DNA of 64,000 nt from Pyrodictiaceae archaeon (GTDB lineage Archaea; Thermoproteota; Thermoprotei_A; Sulfolobales; Pyrodictiaceae), in assembly GCA_027036135.1 (NCBI GenBank), contig JALVSY010000007.1, positions 4,880-68,879 of the forward strand, read 5' to 3'. Position 1 is the first letter of the stretch, and each line of letters starts with the position of its first letter. Both the position numbers and the translations under genes were made by a program. Positions 7,638 through 46,904 of the stretch are shown piece after piece. Under the pieces are notes generated by a model that was not told the DNA's origin, made no database searches, and worked only from the letters and a program-made list of their open reading frames with translations.

Positions 7638-7916
7638 TTATTGTTTATATGCTTGTTTCCTTGTGCCAATGAAGTGCACTATTATGGTTCTTGAGCCCCA
7701 GTCCACCGTGTACACTACACGTATGTCTCCTATGCGGACACGAAAAGTATCTTCGAATCCTCTCAGCTTCTTTAGGTCATAGTCCCTAAAGGGCACCGGG
7801 TCCCTTGATAAGTACTCCAGTAGCTCTAGAATCCTATGCCTATAATGTGCTGGGAGACGCTCTAGGGCTTTAAGGGCTCGGCGCTTAACCTTCACACTGA
7901 AAACACTAGCGCTCAA
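7638..7916 (-). CDS. relE: RelE/ParE-superfamily toxin
   Basis: 92 aa, normal length for the family. It shows the RelE pattern: basic N-terminal strand (VFSVKVKRRA), two helices, DYDLKKLRG at about 45-53, then the beta core FRVRIGDIRVVYTVD and the C-terminal HFIGTRKQAYK. Archaeal RelE toxins cut mRNA on the ribosome. It lies 7 nt behind its antitoxin gene on the same strand and next to CRISPR array 2, which is read in the same direction. A decayed copy of the pair exists at 10176-10670. Confidence 0.88.
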   Translation of the reverse strand: MSASVFSVKVKRRALKALERLPAHYRHRILELLEYLSRDPVPFRDYDLKKLRGFEDTFRVRIGDIRVVYTVDWGSRTIIVHFIGTRKQAYKQ

Positions 7917-7923
7917 GCCCTAC

Positions 7924-8139
7924 TCATCCCTTGCTCTTCTCTAGTAGCCTCTTCTTAACCTCGTTCAGGTCCACTAGCTCATCCCTCATCCTTATAGCCT
8001 CGGCTTCGTCGGGAAGAGGCTCATCCTCCTCAACATGTCTCTCAATAATGAAGCGTAGCATCGACTCTAGCTTCTCAAGCCTCTCCTTAATCTCCCTAAT
8101 CTCTACTAGGATCTCAGAGCTGGACAAGAACGCAGCCAC
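7924..8139 (-). CDS. RelB-like antitoxin
   Basis: 71 aa. N-terminal helix with a heptad pattern (EIREIKERLEKLESMLRFI, residues 12-30) and an acidic C-terminal half ending in VKKRLLEKSKG that would wrap the toxin. Start is GTG at 8139: the decayed paralogue has GTG at the equivalent site and the two upstream regions are also similar (both contain TGAGACCGGG). Function is inferred from the toxin next to it. The 60 nt between its start and the last repeat of array 2 must hold its promoter. Confidence 0.8.
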   Translation of the reverse strand: MAAFLSSSEILVEIREIKERLEKLESMLRFIIERHVEEDEPLPDEAEAIRMRDELVDLNEVKKRLLEKSKG

Positions 8140-8199
8140 CTATTCCCAGGATCTCCCGGTCTCACCATATTGCCTAGCAATCTCCTAAAAAGAATGCCT

Positions 8200-9840: not shown

Positions 9841-10175
9841 TCCCAGGGGCCTAGGTATTCAACTAGTTATCTCAAAGGCCCTAGGCACGTTATACGTGAG
9901 ATGAAAGGGGAGACCGGAGGAGGAAATAACCAAAGCAGAGAGGAAGAATAGCCCTCCGTATCCCTCCCTTATCCGATAATAACCAAATTAATGATAGCGC
10001 TAGCAAGCACGAATAGAGAGACAAAATCGCGTTCATTCCCTAAGCTCTGGCCTATCCGGCACATACAAGGCCTAGTACGCTTACACCACCACTACAAAGA
10101 GACCGGGGAGCACTTGGTTCTCTTTAGGGAATATTCGAGATAATATAGATGAGACCGGGGGATCCAGAGGGAAGG
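9841..10175. other. Gene-free spacer before the decayed TA pair
   Basis: No convincing reading frame. The last 40 nt (TGAGACCGGG and surroundings) are similar to the region just upstream of the intact antitoxin at 8139, so the duplication that produced the second TA copy includes part of the promoter. Confidence 0.5.
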
Positions 10176-10382
10176 GTGACTGCTTTCTTGTCTAGCTCCG
10201 AGACCCGGGCAGAGACGGAGATTAAGAAGGGACCTAAGAAGCTGGAGACCATGCTGCGCCTCATTATTGAGAGACACGTTGGGGGAGATAGGCCCCTCCC
10301 CGACGAGGCCGAGGCCATAAGGACGAGCGACGAGATAGTGGACTTGGACGAGGTTAAGAAGAGCCTGCTAGAGAGAAGCTAG
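10176..10382 (+). CDS. RelB-like antitoxin, paralogue of 7924-8139
   Basis: 68 codons from GTG 10176 (VTAFLSSSETRAETEIKK), closely similar to the intact antitoxin along its whole length, including IIERHV, PLPDEAEAIR and DEVKKSLLE. Small in-frame changes shorten the first helix. The frame is still open although the toxin behind it is destroyed. Orientation is opposite to the first copy. Confidence 0.6.
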   Translation: MTAFLSSSETRAETEIKKGPKKLETMLRLIIERHVGGDRPLPDEAEAIRTSDEIVDLDEVKKSLLERS

Positions 10383-10398
10383 GGATGAGAAGGGCTCA

Positions 10399-10670
10399 AG
10401 ACCCCTAGCGTTTTCAGCGTAAAGATTAGGCGACGAGCCCCTAGAGCACCTCCTAGCACATTATAGGCTCCGGGTCCTAGAGCTACTAGAGCACTTATCA
10501 ACGGATCCAGCGCCTCTCAGAGACTACGACACAAATGGAGCCAAGAGGATTCGAAGACACCTTCGACATCCACGTAGGAGACATATATGTAAGATACATG
10601 GTAGACTAGGGCTCTAGACCAATAACAATATGCCTCACAAAATACAAGGGGTACACATATAACCCATAAT
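10399..10670 (+). pseudogene. RelE toxin pseudogene
   Basis: Clear DNA-level similarity to the intact toxin at 7638-7916: VFSVKIRRRAP at the start, then deletions that shift the frame, ESKTPS/FEDTF-like remains and a TAG replacing the Trp codon of YTVDWGS (near 10606-10612). No toxin can be made. Confidence 0.85.
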
Positions 10671-28069: not shown

Positions 28070-28496
28070 GTGAAAAAGGCCGCTCGGTAATGAGAGGCTC
28101 GAGAACATAGCTAGTATGGTTTGCAAGGAGTTTGGCTACCTCTGCTTCAGCGAGGAAAAGATGGGAGACGCGTTGCCCCTCGTAGCCTCGGAGCTCGCTA
28201 TACTCGAGACCTATGACTTCCTAAGCAGAGCCCAGGGTGATAGAAAGGACAAGGGTTATGAGCTTGTCCTCGCCTGCCTCGAGGACGATAAATGCCTAGA
28301 GACTCTCCTCGACACAGTGAATAGCGCTGTAGATATATACCTAAACGGTGAGGACTACTTCTTTAGCCTCGATAAAGAAGAATTAGAGAGGGCAATAAGG
28401 GTAGCTGAGACCGTGGCCTCTATAATAGAGAAGGAGACCAGTCAAGCAAGGAGGGACAAGGAGAGCCACAGTGCTAGCAAGGAGACCCCCAGCTAG
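28070..28496 (+). CDS. Hypothetical protein, paralogue of 45507-45896, start region frameshifted
   Basis: From ATG 28116 the frame codes for 126 residues, but similarity to the paralogue at 45507-45896 begins earlier (RPLGNERLENIASMVCKEFGYLC against EPLGRYSPRLVASLVCREAGDLC). In-frame codons upstream run only to a TGA. Removing one A from the A5 run at 28073-28077 would give GTG 28070-AAA-AGG-CCG-CTC, a full-length match. Acidic, helical, with two Cys pairs (VCKEFGYLC and CLEDDKCLETLL). Function unknown. Confidence 0.6.
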
Positions 28497-41688: not shown

Positions 41689-42183
41689 GTGTTGGAGGTT
41701 GCAGCCGAGAGAGTGGCTGAGAAGAGCGAGCTAGAGGAGGTACTTGGCCCGGTAGAGCCTCCGAAGCCCCTGGAATGGGTCCCTGTAATAGCTAGCCTGG
41801 GTATTGAGAGGAAGCGTGTCAGGCTACGTAGTGGCGAGACCCGGGTCTATGAGAGCTACCGGGTGAGGCTACCCAAGGAGGTTGTTGAGAAGCTAGGTCT
41901 CCGAGGAGAATCAACAGTGCTCCTTCAAGTAGCCCGGCCCCGCTGGTACCACCTCCTAGACTACAGGGAAGAGCCCCTCCGCACCAGGTTCAAGCAAATA
42001 AAGAAGCCATGGATAAAGGCAGAGATATGCCTCCTAGGCCTCGCCCCCCAGGATCTATGCAATGACTATAAGACAATCACAGTCATAGCCTCCGAGCAGG
42101 AGCTACGGGAACTAGGACTGGAGCCAGGCAAGCCAATAACGCTCAGAGAACTACTAGAGAGGGCTAGAAGCATGAGAGGCTGA
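41689..42183 (+). CDS. AbrB-like protein of duplicated unit 1
   Basis: 164 aa. Central part SGETRVYESYRVRLPKEVVEKLGL resembles a swapped-hairpin AbrB strand-helix; C-terminal part has conserved PRWYH, KAEICLLGLAPQDLCNDY and ELGLEPGKPITLRELLERA. Paralogue of 42551-43042. Function unknown; Cys in ICLLGLAPQDLC may bind metal. Start GTG 41689. Its end overlaps the end of the second regulator gene by 30 nt on the other strand. Confidence 0.7.
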   Translation: MLEVAAERVAEKSELEEVLGPVEPPKPLEWVPVIASLGIERKRVRLRSGETRVYESYRVRLPKEVVEKLGLRGESTVLLQVARPRWYHLLDYREEPLRTRFKQIKKPWIKAEICLLGLAPQDLCNDYKTITVIASEQELRELGLEPGKPITLRELLERARSMRG

Positions 42184-42550: not shown

Positions 42551-43042
42551 TTGGTGACAATTGTGGAGACGCTGAGCGTTGAGGAGAGGGAGAGGCTCAT
42601 AGAGGAGCTACGCCGAGAGGCCAGGCCGGAGCCACTGAGGTGGAGGCTCTTCCTAGCGGAGGCTATGAGGACCCGTATGAGGAAGAGGCTGAAGAGCGGC
42701 GAGACCCGGGTCTACGAGGGCTACCGAGTAACCATACCCCTGGAGCTCGCCAAGGAGCTAGGCCTAGACCAGGACCCCGAGCTAGTAGTAGCAATAGCTA
42801 AGCCCAGATGGTACCACGGCATAATCTACGAGGATGCTACCCTCAAGCTCTTCCACAAACTCCCCCCATACGCTAAGGCGGAGATATGCCAACTGGGCCT
42901 CGCTCCCCAAGACATGTGCAGAGAATACAGAACCATAACCGTGGTAGCTAGTGAGGAAGAGCTAAGGAGGCTAGGACTGGAGCCAGGCAAGCCCGTGACA
43001 CTCAGGGAGCTCCTCGAGAAAGCCAAGAACCTCGCAACCTGA
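42551..43042 (+). CDS. AbrB-like protein of duplicated unit 2
   Basis: 163 aa, clear paralogue of 41689-42183 with the same three blocks: SGETRVYEGYRVTIPLELAK, PRWYHGIIY, KAEICQLGLAPQDMCREY, RLGLEPGKPVTLRELLEKA. Start TTG 42551 (or GTG 42554), 25 nt from the TATA box. The N-terminal 50 residues differ from the first copy. Confidence 0.72.
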   Translation: MVTIVETLSVEERERLIEELRREARPEPLRWRLFLAEAMRTRMRKRLKSGETRVYEGYRVTIPLELAKELGLDQDPELVVAIAKPRWYHGIIYEDATLKLFHKLPPYAKAEICQLGLAPQDMCREYRTITVVASEEELRRLGLEPGKPVTLRELLEKAKNLAT

Positions 43043-43391
43043 TCCCTCTCCGCAGCAAAGATATGCATTAGCCGAAGTAGTCGAGGAAGCTGCAACGCCT
43101 ACCCATGGCCCCTAGCCAGAGCCTCCGAAGAGCCCATAGCCCTTGGGCGCGTATTTCTCCATGTACCCTACATACCAGCTTATCCGGTTACCGCTGTTCC
43201 CGATACCACCCTTAGTGGCTAGGAGCATGCATGTAGAGCATACCCTCATTGAATCTCCACTGGTATAGAGGTGGGCCTCTTGTATCCCAGGGGTACACAA
43301 GGTAACACTTTCTCCTAGAAACAATGGATGCGATAACACCTAGGCACAGATAACGAGGTACCCTAGAGCCCCATGAATACAAAGAAATGCG
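43043..43391. other. Region without recognised gene
   Basis: Two minus-strand frames (43339-43112 and an overlapping one) are open but have unusual composition. One contains WYVGYMEKYAPKGYGLFGGSG-like sequence that may be the relic of a protein gene; not recognised. Confidence 0.3.
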
Positions 43392-43395
43392 GGAG

Positions 43396-44257
43396 GAGCC
43401 CACCCCTAACCACACAGAGAGACCCAAATCAAGCCCTGGAAGCCCCTCCCCAGGGAACCCCTTCTCTCGGGGAAGGCGGCCGGCCAACCCCGAGGGGCGG
43501 GCCCCCCGGGCCCGGAAAGAGAGCCACGCATCTGGGAACCCTTGTTCTCCCCCAAGCACCCAGAGAGACACGCCCCGGGAAACCAGGCGGCCACAGAGCC
43601 CCCGCCAGGCCAAGGAGCCCGGTTCCCAGCGCCGAAGAAGACACCAGGAGAGCCCCGAGCCCAGGGACACTGCCCAGGCCCCACGGGAAGAGACCCCTAA
43701 AGTAGGAGCCCGCCACAGCGGAGGCCAATGCCAGTCCCTAAGGCCCACCCTCTCCCACGGCACGGAGGGGCAGGCCCAGCAAGCCCTAGGAATCCCCGAG
43801 TCCCCCGGAGCACCCCAAGGAACCAGGGGCTACGGCGAACCAGCGGCCCCTGGGCCTCCCCGCGGCTAGAGCCCCAAGGCACCCTAGAAGGCACCAGGGA
43901 AGCGATGACCATCCCCAGCCGCCTCAGGGATGCGTGCCAACACCACCTCGGGCCCTGGGACATCTAGGCCAGCTGGCACAGCCCCAGCCCACGGGGTGGT
44001 AGCGGAGCAACCTCTCGTCGAAGATGCGCGTCCCATGGCCCCGGCCAAGGACCTCTACCCCAAGGCTTTCGCGGAGCCCTGGCAGCCTCCGCGATACGGC
44101 CTGGGCAGAGCCCCGTAGAGTCTCTCGGTGCCGCCAGAGACCCCCAGGGCCGAGACCTAGCGGCCCTGGAAACCTTGCTCCGTCGAGGAGAACCCCTCCC
44201 AAGCACTGCTGCCAAGAGGCGAACAGCTGTTATAAGCCCCTCATGCGGTTGCCGAAA
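43396..44257 (+). ncRNA. Candidate structured RNA, left arm of the inverted repeat
   Basis: GC-rich with strong local hairpins: CGCGGAG/CTCCGCG at 44070-44093 around a GGCAGCC loop, and CCAGGGCC/GGCCCTGG at 44144-44169. In the right arm the second hairpin position keeps pairing (GGCA/TGCC) although the bases differ, which is what conservation of an RNA fold would give. Strand is not known; plus is given only because it reads inward from the outer boundary. Confidence 0.35.
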
Positions 44258-44431
44258 AAGTCCCCGGCCCGAAGCGGCGCTCCCAAGGACCCGGCCCAGG
44301 AGGTGAATCCTCCCCGGGCACCCTCTAGGGATCCAAGGGGCTCTCCTATACACCGAGGCTCATGCGGCCTCGGCGGAGGCCCTCCGGGGTCCCTAGAGGG
44401 CTTGGTCCCTGAGGCGCCTTGGGCCAGGGGC

Positions 44432-45291
44432 TTTCGGCAACCGCGTACTAGTGGATTAGCTTCGGGGCCTAGCGCGGGAGGGTTCTCCTCAACGGAGCCG
44501 TGGCACATTGCTATCATATTATTGCCGGGAATCCCTGGTAGCACCGAGAGACTCCACAAGGCCCATGCCCAGGCCTCTAAGGCAGCGGGGGCTGCCGGGC
44601 CCTACTCGCCTTGGGGCAAGAGCCCTTGATCGGAGCCAGGGGCGCTTGTTCCTCGGCGAAGAGGTTGCTCCTCCCCCGGAGCCGGGGCTATGTCAGCCAG
44701 CCTGGTCTCGGGGCTTCGAGGGTGAGCTGACACGCGCCCCCTGAGACGGCGGGGATGGTCCCTGGGTGCCTCCTTGGGGTGCCCTGGAGCACCTAGCCGC
44801 AGAGGGAGACATAGAGGGCCTAGCTAGCCCGCCGTTAAGCCCCTGGTCCCTGGGGTGCTTTCCCGGGGGTCCTCGGAGGAATCCCTGGCTCGCTGGGCCC
44901 CCTTGGTTCCTCCGCGCCGTGGGATGCTGATTGGTGGGCTTGGGCCCGGCTTGGTCTCCATGCCGTGGCGGGTCCCGGTGCCCTCCCCGCGGAGGCCTCT
45001 CTTGGTTCCTGGGTCTCGGGGCTCTCCTGGTGCTCTCGGCGCTGGCTAGGCACTGTGCTCCCTGGCCTAGCAAGGGCCTGTAACCAACCTGGTTTTCCTC
45101 GGAGCGCGTCTCTCTGGGTGCATCACCCCCGTGCGTGGCTCTCTTTGAGGATCCTCAGGGCCCACCCTCCCCGCGGGACTCTTCCTTCCCCGAGAGGGGG
45201 TCCCGGGGCGGGCGGGGTCCAGGGCTCCCTGCTCCCAGGAGGCAGGCTGGCTCCTCCTGGGAGAGGGGCTGTGTGGCTAGGGGTGGGCTCC
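44432..45291 (-). ncRNA. Candidate structured RNA, right arm of the inverted repeat
   Basis: Inverted second copy. Hairpins include GGCAGC/GCTGCC at 44581-44596 and GGCA/TGCC at 44502-44526. Read inward on the minus strand, the outer flank has CTCTTAAAGC about 40 nt before the conserved block, a possible TATA box (near 45330). The left arm lacks an equally good one. Confidence 0.33.
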
Positions 45292-45506
45292 CCTTTAGGC
45301 CTCCTTTCTACTGTTTTGATAGTGCTTTAAGAGTTAGGGGGTATGAGGAGTGCTGGGTTCTCTCGCGGTTTCTTGGTGCGCGACGTGCCCGGTGGTGTAG
45401 GGGTGGTGCGGGGAGAAGGAGTGCTATGTACGGAGGGGCTTCGGGGCGCGGTGTTGCTTCCTGGTTCGAGGGGAGCATTGTTTCCCTGTCTTGGCTCCCC
45501 GTGGGG

Positions 45507-45896
45507 CTAGGTGAGGGCTTTTCCTGTCTCCTGCCTCATGTGCGGGGGTGCTCCGTCGTGGCCGTCTAGGTGTCTGCGTAGATAATCTGCTACCTCTTTT
45601 ACCTCGTCTAGGCTCACTGTGAAGAAGTACTTGTTCTCGATGTAGAGCGTGGCGGCCTCGCGAGTAGTGTCTACTAGTTGGTCTAGGCACTCGTCGCTCT
45701 CTAGGCACTCCTTTATAGCTTCCAGGCCTAGCTCGGAGGCCACGAAGCTATAGGTCTCCATCACTGCTAGCTCCATGCCCACGAGTGCTAGGAGTTCCTC
45801 CCCCAGCTCCTCTTCCTCGACGCAGAGGTCCCCAGCCTCCCTGCACACTAGGCTCGCTACTAGCCTCGGCGAGTACCTACCCAGTGGCTCCACCAT
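45507..45896 (-). CDS. Hypothetical protein, paralogue of 28070-28496
   Basis: 129 aa: EPLGRYSPRLVASLVCREAG, LVGMELAVMETYSFVASELG, AIKECLESDECLDQLVDTTR, YIENKYFFTVSLDEVKEVAD. Same layout and paired Cys as the gene at 28 kb (there LASELAILETYDFLS-like, CLEDDKCLETLLDT, YFFSLDKEELER). Acidic and helical; function unknown. Intact start ATG or GTG at 45896. Confidence 0.65.
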   Translation of the reverse strand: MVEPLGRYSPRLVASLVCREAGDLCVEEEELGEELLALVGMELAVMETYSFVASELGLEAIKECLESDECLDQLVDTTREAATLYIENKYFFTVSLDEVKEVADYLRRHLDGHDGAPPHMRQETGKALT

Positions 45897-46220: not shown

Positions 46221-46664
46221 CTAGCGTATGAGTAGGTTGCTTGTGTCTAGGCCCTTTGTCTCTAGGAACTCTACTAGTTTCCTATCGCGTGTGACTAGGA
46301 TCGCGTCTTCGTGGAGGGCTGTAGCGTAGAGTATACAGTCAAAGATATCGGGGTGCCCAAGTGCCTTCAGCTTAATCGCGGTCTTGATGTGCTCTATACG
46401 GGGCTGTATAAGCCCCACATCAACTTCTAGGAGTAATGCGATCAAGGCCTCGGACGCGGGCTCGGGTACCTCGCGGAGCCCTTGCTTCATCATCTCCTTT
46501 GCTATCTTTGCTGCGAGTTCGGGTAGGAGCAGGATAGGGTAATAGATATCTGCGCCTAGCTCTTCTCTTAGCCTGGCTACGTCCCTGGCTTCTAGTCCTT
46601 GTACCTTTATACCGAAGAATGGTAAAAGATAAGTGGTATCGATAACGGCCTTTCTTCTCTGCAA
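46221..46664 (-). CDS. vapC: VapC toxin (PIN ribonuclease)
   Basis: 147 aa with AVIDTTYLLPFFGI (Asp9), LLLPELAAKIAKEM (Glu near 50), GHPDIFDCILYATAL (Asp near 109) and AILVTRDRKLVEFL (Asp near 127). Complete PIN active site. Three nt behind its AbrB-type antitoxin. Start ATG 46664. Confidence 0.88.
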   Translation of the reverse strand: MQRRKAVIDTTYLLPFFGIKVQGLEARDVARLREELGADIYYPILLLPELAAKIAKEMMKQGLREVPEPASEALIALLLEVDVGLIQPRIEHIKTAIKLKALGHPDIFDCILYATALHEDAILVTRDRKLVEFLETKGLDTSNLLIR

Positions 46665-46667
46665 GGC

Positions 46668-46904
46668 CTACTGGTCCTCCTCGCTTATCCTGGTAAGTTC
46701 CTCGCTCTCCTCCTCGAACTCCTCCACGGTTGTCTCAGCCCAGTAGCTCCTCTCCTTGAATAGGCGGGGGAGGGGGCGAAGCACTAGCTCGTTTCCACGG
46801 ATGCTAAGTAATAGTCTGTCGCCTTCGCGTAGCCCTAATTTCTCAACAATCTCCTTTGGGAGATAAAGCGCATATTTCCGGCCAACCCGGATAACCAGGC
46901 TCAA
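46668..46904 (-). CDS. vapB: AbrB/MazE-type antitoxin
   Basis: 78 aa: swapped-hairpin domain VIRVGRKYALYLPKEIVEKLGLREGD (residues 4-29), then GNELVLRPLP and an acidic tail FEEESEELTRISEEDQ that would bind VapC. Confidence 0.87.
   Translation of the reverse strand: MSLVIRVGRKYALYLPKEIVEKLGLREGDRLLLSIRGNELVLRPLPRLFKERSYWAETTVEEFEEESEELTRISEEDQ

Follow-up and report, generated by a model that had tools for sequence, protein, structure and literature searches.

A 1.9-kb inverted repeat with a conserved foot in Pyrodictiaceae as a probable gene of a giant hairpin RNA

The hairpin RNA (hpRNA) genes of animals produce long transcripts of inverted repeats, which fold in a strand-specific way and feed RNA interference. 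In archaea, we are not aware of any kilobase-long, near-complete RNA hairpin that exists as a stand-alone gene, and an RNA interference pathway that could explain one is not known in them. Among the large RNAs of bacteria, OLE, GOLLD and ROOL are ornate molecules, mostly of obscure role, which form homo-oligomers; some of the contacts are self-complementary loops (PMC12286853). L9.3 of OLE switches between the palindromes GGCC and GAUC (PMC12286853). Here we analyse a stretch of 64,000 nucleotides from a Pyrodictiaceae archaeon (assembly GCA_027036135.1, contig JALVSY010000007.1), called the window below, which contains a long inverted repeat with relatives in other members of the family.

The inverted repeat and its relatives

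An initial annotation of the window had described a collinear inverted repeat of 1.9 kb at 43392-45296. It was found at exactly these coordinates, with far more matching blocks than the five that had been listed; the inner ends of the two arms, 44337 and 44340, are approximate (Table 1). Aligned with the reverse-complemented left arm, the right arm is 83-87% identical over 772-815 columns, depending on the gap costs, and about 290 bases remain unpaired in indels. The local score of this alignment was 319; the maximum in 200 shuffles was 40. Since the arms differ by 13-17% and by many indels, and this in three assemblies, a chimeric assembly palindrome is excluded. The hairpin CCAGGGCC...GGCCCTGG of the initial annotation was also present exactly where it had been placed. 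By BLAST, the repeat is a single copy in its own genome. Its longer ORFs belong to no Pfam family (a single chance match had E=0.06), Rfam 15 gave no gathering-level match for the window, and with the Rfam covariance models the hairpin regions of the window and of the two relatives described below came nowhere near any family cut-off. There is no tRNA near the repeat.

Table 1. Positions in the window of the proposed gene and of its parts
Feature	Position	Strand	Remarks
Proposed giant hairpin RNA gene	43392..45296	-	Arm alignment, sense versus antisense fold, homologues in G007 and G015
RNA 5' arm (right arm on + strand)	44340..45296	-	
RNA 3' arm (left arm on + strand)	43392..44337	-	
TATA-like CTTAAA	45326..45331	-	38 nt ahead of first predicted pair
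Promoter-plus-foot block common to window and G010	45275..45358	-	Unalignable beyond block
Palindrome A5, GAGGATCCTC	45147..45156	-	RNA 5' arm; identical in three genomes
Palindrome A3, CCGGGCCCGG	43506..43515	-	RNA 3' arm; opposite A5; identical in three genomes
Palindrome B5, CCCGCGGG	45170..45177	-	RNA 5' arm; CCGCGCGG in G007 and, in the form CCCGCGCGGG, in G015
Palindrome B3, GGCCGGCC	43478..43485	-	RNA 3' arm; opposite B5; identical in three genomes
Side hairpin CCAGGGCC/GGCCCTGG	44144..44169	-	Confined to one arm; untraced in relatives

With the repeat as BLAST query, short matches were obtained in only three of 20 genomes of the family (G010, G007 and G015). The match in G007 falls in an inverted repeat of its own, about 1.0 kb long (L007:6066-7084), and that in G015 (Pyrodictium sp. 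DIMAG01, contig JABXKE010000002.1) in one of 0.67 kb (L008:6058-6728). Inverted repeats with the same foot are present in three genomes from two genera. Beyond the foot the three hairpins cannot be aligned with each other by BLAST, and within each of them the arms are about 83-85% identical in a strictly defined core. The contig of G010 ends inside an arm, its last bases matching the right foot of the window; short-read assemblies would break at such a hairpin arm.

No further copies were detected in 214 genomes of the order, searched with the G015 hairpin, the G007 hairpin and a sequence model of the 3' foot, or in 229 genomes of the class, searched with the foot model. The other complete genomes of the family contained no homologue by sequence, and there was no match in the viral contigs, phages and plasmids that were scanned. 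A scan for long, nearly loop-less inverted repeats in G007 (400 kb), G015 (394 kb), G000 (249 kb) and G011 (1.2 Mb, about two thirds of it) yielded only the hairpins of the window, G007 and G015, the scanned part of G011 being without anything comparable. Several candidate matches were rejected: those in G155 and G043 arose by chance and the hairpin is absent there, those near the rRNA in G004 and G011 are 16S rRNA ends, and the occurrences of GAGGATCCTCA elsewhere in the family have no inverted repeat nearby.

Two of the otherwise GC-rich rods bear A/T-rich tips, at L008:6328-6440 in G015, where the tip contains a separate hairpin GGAGCCAGCCTCTC...GAGAGGTTGGCTCC, and at L007:6575-6606 in G007. 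The rod of the window is without such a tip.

The flanking gene order at the hairpin differs between genomes in all three cases. The window and G007 have their right-hand neighbours in common, relative to which the two hairpins point in opposite directions, and differ in their left-hand neighbours. In G015 the hairpin lies between a TrpB-like gene and a gene for a metallo-beta-lactamase-fold protein, which are not adjacent in the other genomes examined. A gene neighbour common to all three hairpins was not found. As no gene travels with the hairpin, a role in trans is likelier than the regulation of a neighbour. Coupling to the neighbouring 129-aa protein was considered and dropped: its homologue in G007 flanks the hairpin there in the opposite relative orientation, paralogues of it occur where there is no hairpin, and it is missing from G015. 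At 45507-45896 (minus strand) and about 28080-28403 (plus strand) the window encodes paralogous proteins, about 130 aa long, that share a CREAGDLC-like motif. The former has no Pfam match, and such paralogues occur in three copies in G007 and in few copies elsewhere in the order. A PIN-domain toxin and a MazE/AbrB antitoxin form a pair at 46221-46904. On the other side, 41689-42183 and 42551-43042 encode proteins of about 163 aa that are related to each other; one of them has an AbrB-like stretch, and both are accompanied by a small ORF on the opposite strand.

Fold, strand and foot

In the predicted sense fold of the window, 710 of the 782 pairs span the centre. The initial annotation had offered either one giant hairpin transcript or two inverted copies of a 0.9-kb RNA; the fold supports the former and not the latter. 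That this would be one polarised transcript of the minus strand is backed by an excess of G.U pairs, a promoter-like block on one side and foot motifs that are specific for each arm.

The fold energies of the sense and antisense strands were -1441 and -1297 kcal/mol for the window, -794 and -662 kcal/mol for G007, and -527 and -487 kcal/mol for G015. The advantage of the sense strand (144, 132 and 40 kcal/mol, respectively) nearly vanishes when G.U pairs are forbidden. For a repeat that works as RNA, one would expect G.U-forming mismatches to be favoured only on the strand that is transcribed. The transition mismatches between the core arms were of the G.U type in 110 cases and of the A.C type in 32 (window 58:25, G007 36:3, G015 16:4), and the three hairpins shared one polarity with respect to the foot; the arm with GAGGATCCTC was always the 5' arm. 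Initially this bias seemed decisive in all three, but controls left it strong in G007 only. Among 48 inverted pairs from 2.2 Mb, the hairpin of G007 (35:5) had the strongest bias. In the window, an unrelated inverted pair (53:27) was as biased as the hairpin (57:28 with blastn), and the value for G015 varies with the alignment. As evidence for the strand, the G.U bias is strong for G007, supportive for the window and supportive to weak for G015. In G007 and G015 the unpaired bases do not have the keto excess of the paired bases, which speaks against a general mutational strand bias; in the window the unpaired bases share it. Taken with the fold model, these data suggest that the transcript runs on the minus strand of the window.

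The most awkward of the control pairs, that with the ratio of 53:27, consists of inverted copies of a short cassette (7682-8194 and 10118-10625) that are 76% identical. The cassette has no ORFs of at least 100 aa and, by eye, is possibly toxin-antitoxin-like.

A candidate promoter element, CTTAAA, precedes the first predicted pair by 35 nt in G007 and G015, close to the spacing in the window, and is absent from the 60 nt on the opposite side in all three genomes. The hexamer and its spacing were picked out post hoc, and its background is one occurrence per 5087 strand-bases. A promoter matrix learned from genes by expectation maximisation was poorly defined and was set aside; its scores were not significant in two of the three cases. 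From about 30 nt ahead of CTTAAA through the foot, G010 and the window hardly differ, but farther upstream they cannot be aligned. This conservation of block and foot lends independent support to the candidate promoter. For Pyrodictium, we found no RNA-seq in the literature.

Only the foot is recognisable between the species of the window, G007 and G015. It contains four palindromes in a fixed order in all three genomes: CCCGCGGG or CCGCGCGG followed by GAGGATCCTC in the 5' arm, and CCGGGCCCGG followed by GGCCGGCC in the 3' arm. They oppose each other in the rod, yet are not fully complementary across the arms. For the foot 10-mers, self-duplexes are predicted at -17.4 and -23.9 kcal/mol, pairing across the arms at -5.6 to about -7 kcal/mol. 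In B5 two positions vary between species with self-complementarity retained. Palindromes of eight bases are not in themselves enriched over shuffles of this GC-rich sequence. Since they are common by chance, what counts is that three genomes agree in the sequences of the palindromes, in their order and in their positions opposite each other. The palindromes are specific for each arm; thus the arms are not interchangeable.

The helices beside the foot motifs are canonical in every scored cell of every species. Both sides have changed in 19 of their 32 pairs, including three in helix III, the homology of which is clear; for helices II and IV the alignment relies on an anchor and not on sequence. 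Homologues, which the initial annotation had proposed to look for in Pyrodictiaceae, were found; with that of the window there are three complete copies, and pairing is kept in them while the sequence changes.

A probable hairpin RNA gene and its alternatives

The data support an inverted repeat with relatives, a conserved foot and pairing that is kept amid sequence change, and we consider it probable that the locus is a functional hairpin RNA gene. It would encode one stand-alone noncoding RNA, about 1.9 kb long. Transcription from the TATA-like box would follow the minus strand, starting near 45300, shortly ahead of the foot of the repeat, and ending near 43390, shortly past the other foot. 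Over its whole length this RNA is predicted to form a rod in which about 82% of the bases are paired. At two sites near the foot, where both arms bear palindromes unable to pair fully with each other, two RNA molecules may join, each arm with the same arm of the partner. The dimerising RNA could then be a structural scaffold, although any cellular role is a guess. The dimer is suggested by the self-duplex energies of the palindromes and by analogy with the symmetric contacts of OLE (PMC12286853). Dimer and scaffold are tentative proposals, much less certain than the RNA gene.

The locus could instead be a DNA palindrome, the arms of which are kept alike by gene conversion or palindrome-based repair and which acts as DNA, in a cruciform, in replication or in chromosome architecture, with no functional RNA. 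Conversion would leave the arms far more alike within species than between species, as they are, and all three elements sit where the flanking gene order differs. The keto composition flips at all three centres: over about 1 kb on either side it changes at the centre from A/C-rich to G/T-rich, slightly past the arms and, in G015, into gene ends. The flip makes a chromosomal replication origin tempting as well, but there is no genome-scale skew flip and no orc1/cdc6 nearby, so that this candidate was rejected. Against conversion, the runs of matches are geometric in length, as for independently placed changes, with no conversion tracts, and the arm-specific palindromes remain different between the arms. 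Moreover, the G.U excess is polarised and agrees with the one-sided promoter block. On balance we regard a pure DNA palindrome as unlikely.

The remaining explanations are far less probable. A viroid-like RNA replicon with a rod shape, either copied into the chromosome or related to the hairpin, would account for a highly paired rod fold of about 1 kb, and Obelisk-like replicons have been reported in hot springs (PMC13096302). Such replicons are circular RNAs without a DNA copy, however, and the hairpins are single-copy DNA in assembled chromosomes. The apparent promoter has a conserved position in G000 and G010, Rfam yielded neither a self-cleaving ribozyme nor any other match, and the ORFs contain no Pfam family, which makes this origin very improbable. 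Hardly more credible are a MITE-like, non-autonomous mobile element and decayed genes in inverted duplication. Terminal inverted repeats and the different flanking genes in G015 would fit the former, but MITEs and insertion sequences are expected in several copies and there is one per genome, the arms pair along their whole length and not at the ends alone, and a target-site duplication was not seen on reading the flanks. For decayed genes, protein homology is missing in either arm.

Comparison with known systems

Three species, in which nearly all of the sequence is different and fold and foot are the same, point to an unknown kind of RNA. Its novelty follows from the architecture and from the lack of any family match, and depends on the existence of the transcript. 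Possibly, though this is doubtful, the hairpins represent a new class of giant archaeal RNAs of 0.7-1.9 kb, each a single hairpin rod that would dimerise by strand exchange at the foot palindromes, with length and sequence of the rod free and shape, strand polarity and foot kept. Near-complete turnover of the sequence with a lasting rod shape and foot would make these RNAs a test of whether RNA shape alone can be selected. The host cells grow near or above 100 C; if the hairpin RNA reading is true, cells at such temperatures would contain very stable long double-stranded RNA.

Animal hpRNAs resemble the proposed RNA in their length, inverted-repeat origin and strand-specific fold; an RNA interference pathway, such as they feed, is not known to us in these archaea. 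Viroid-like rods and Obelisks share with the proposed RNA a length of about 1 kb and the rod-like fold, whereas here the proposed gene is chromosomal, in a single copy and with a putative promoter, and neither a ribozyme nor a protein family was found. OLE, GOLLD and ROOL are branched and ornate, bacterial or phage-borne, and more deeply conserved in sequence. In contrast, the hairpin RNA is archaeal, a nearly unbranched rod conserved in the foot alone, and matches no Rfam family. A likeness to OLE is that GGCC and GAUC, between which L9.3 switches, also form the centres of A3 and A5. Perhaps, by this analogy, the hairpin RNA acts as do RNAs whose assembly relies on symmetric palindromic loops. 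If so, it could add an archaeal example to the small number of natural RNAs that are assembled through symmetric contacts between palindromes.
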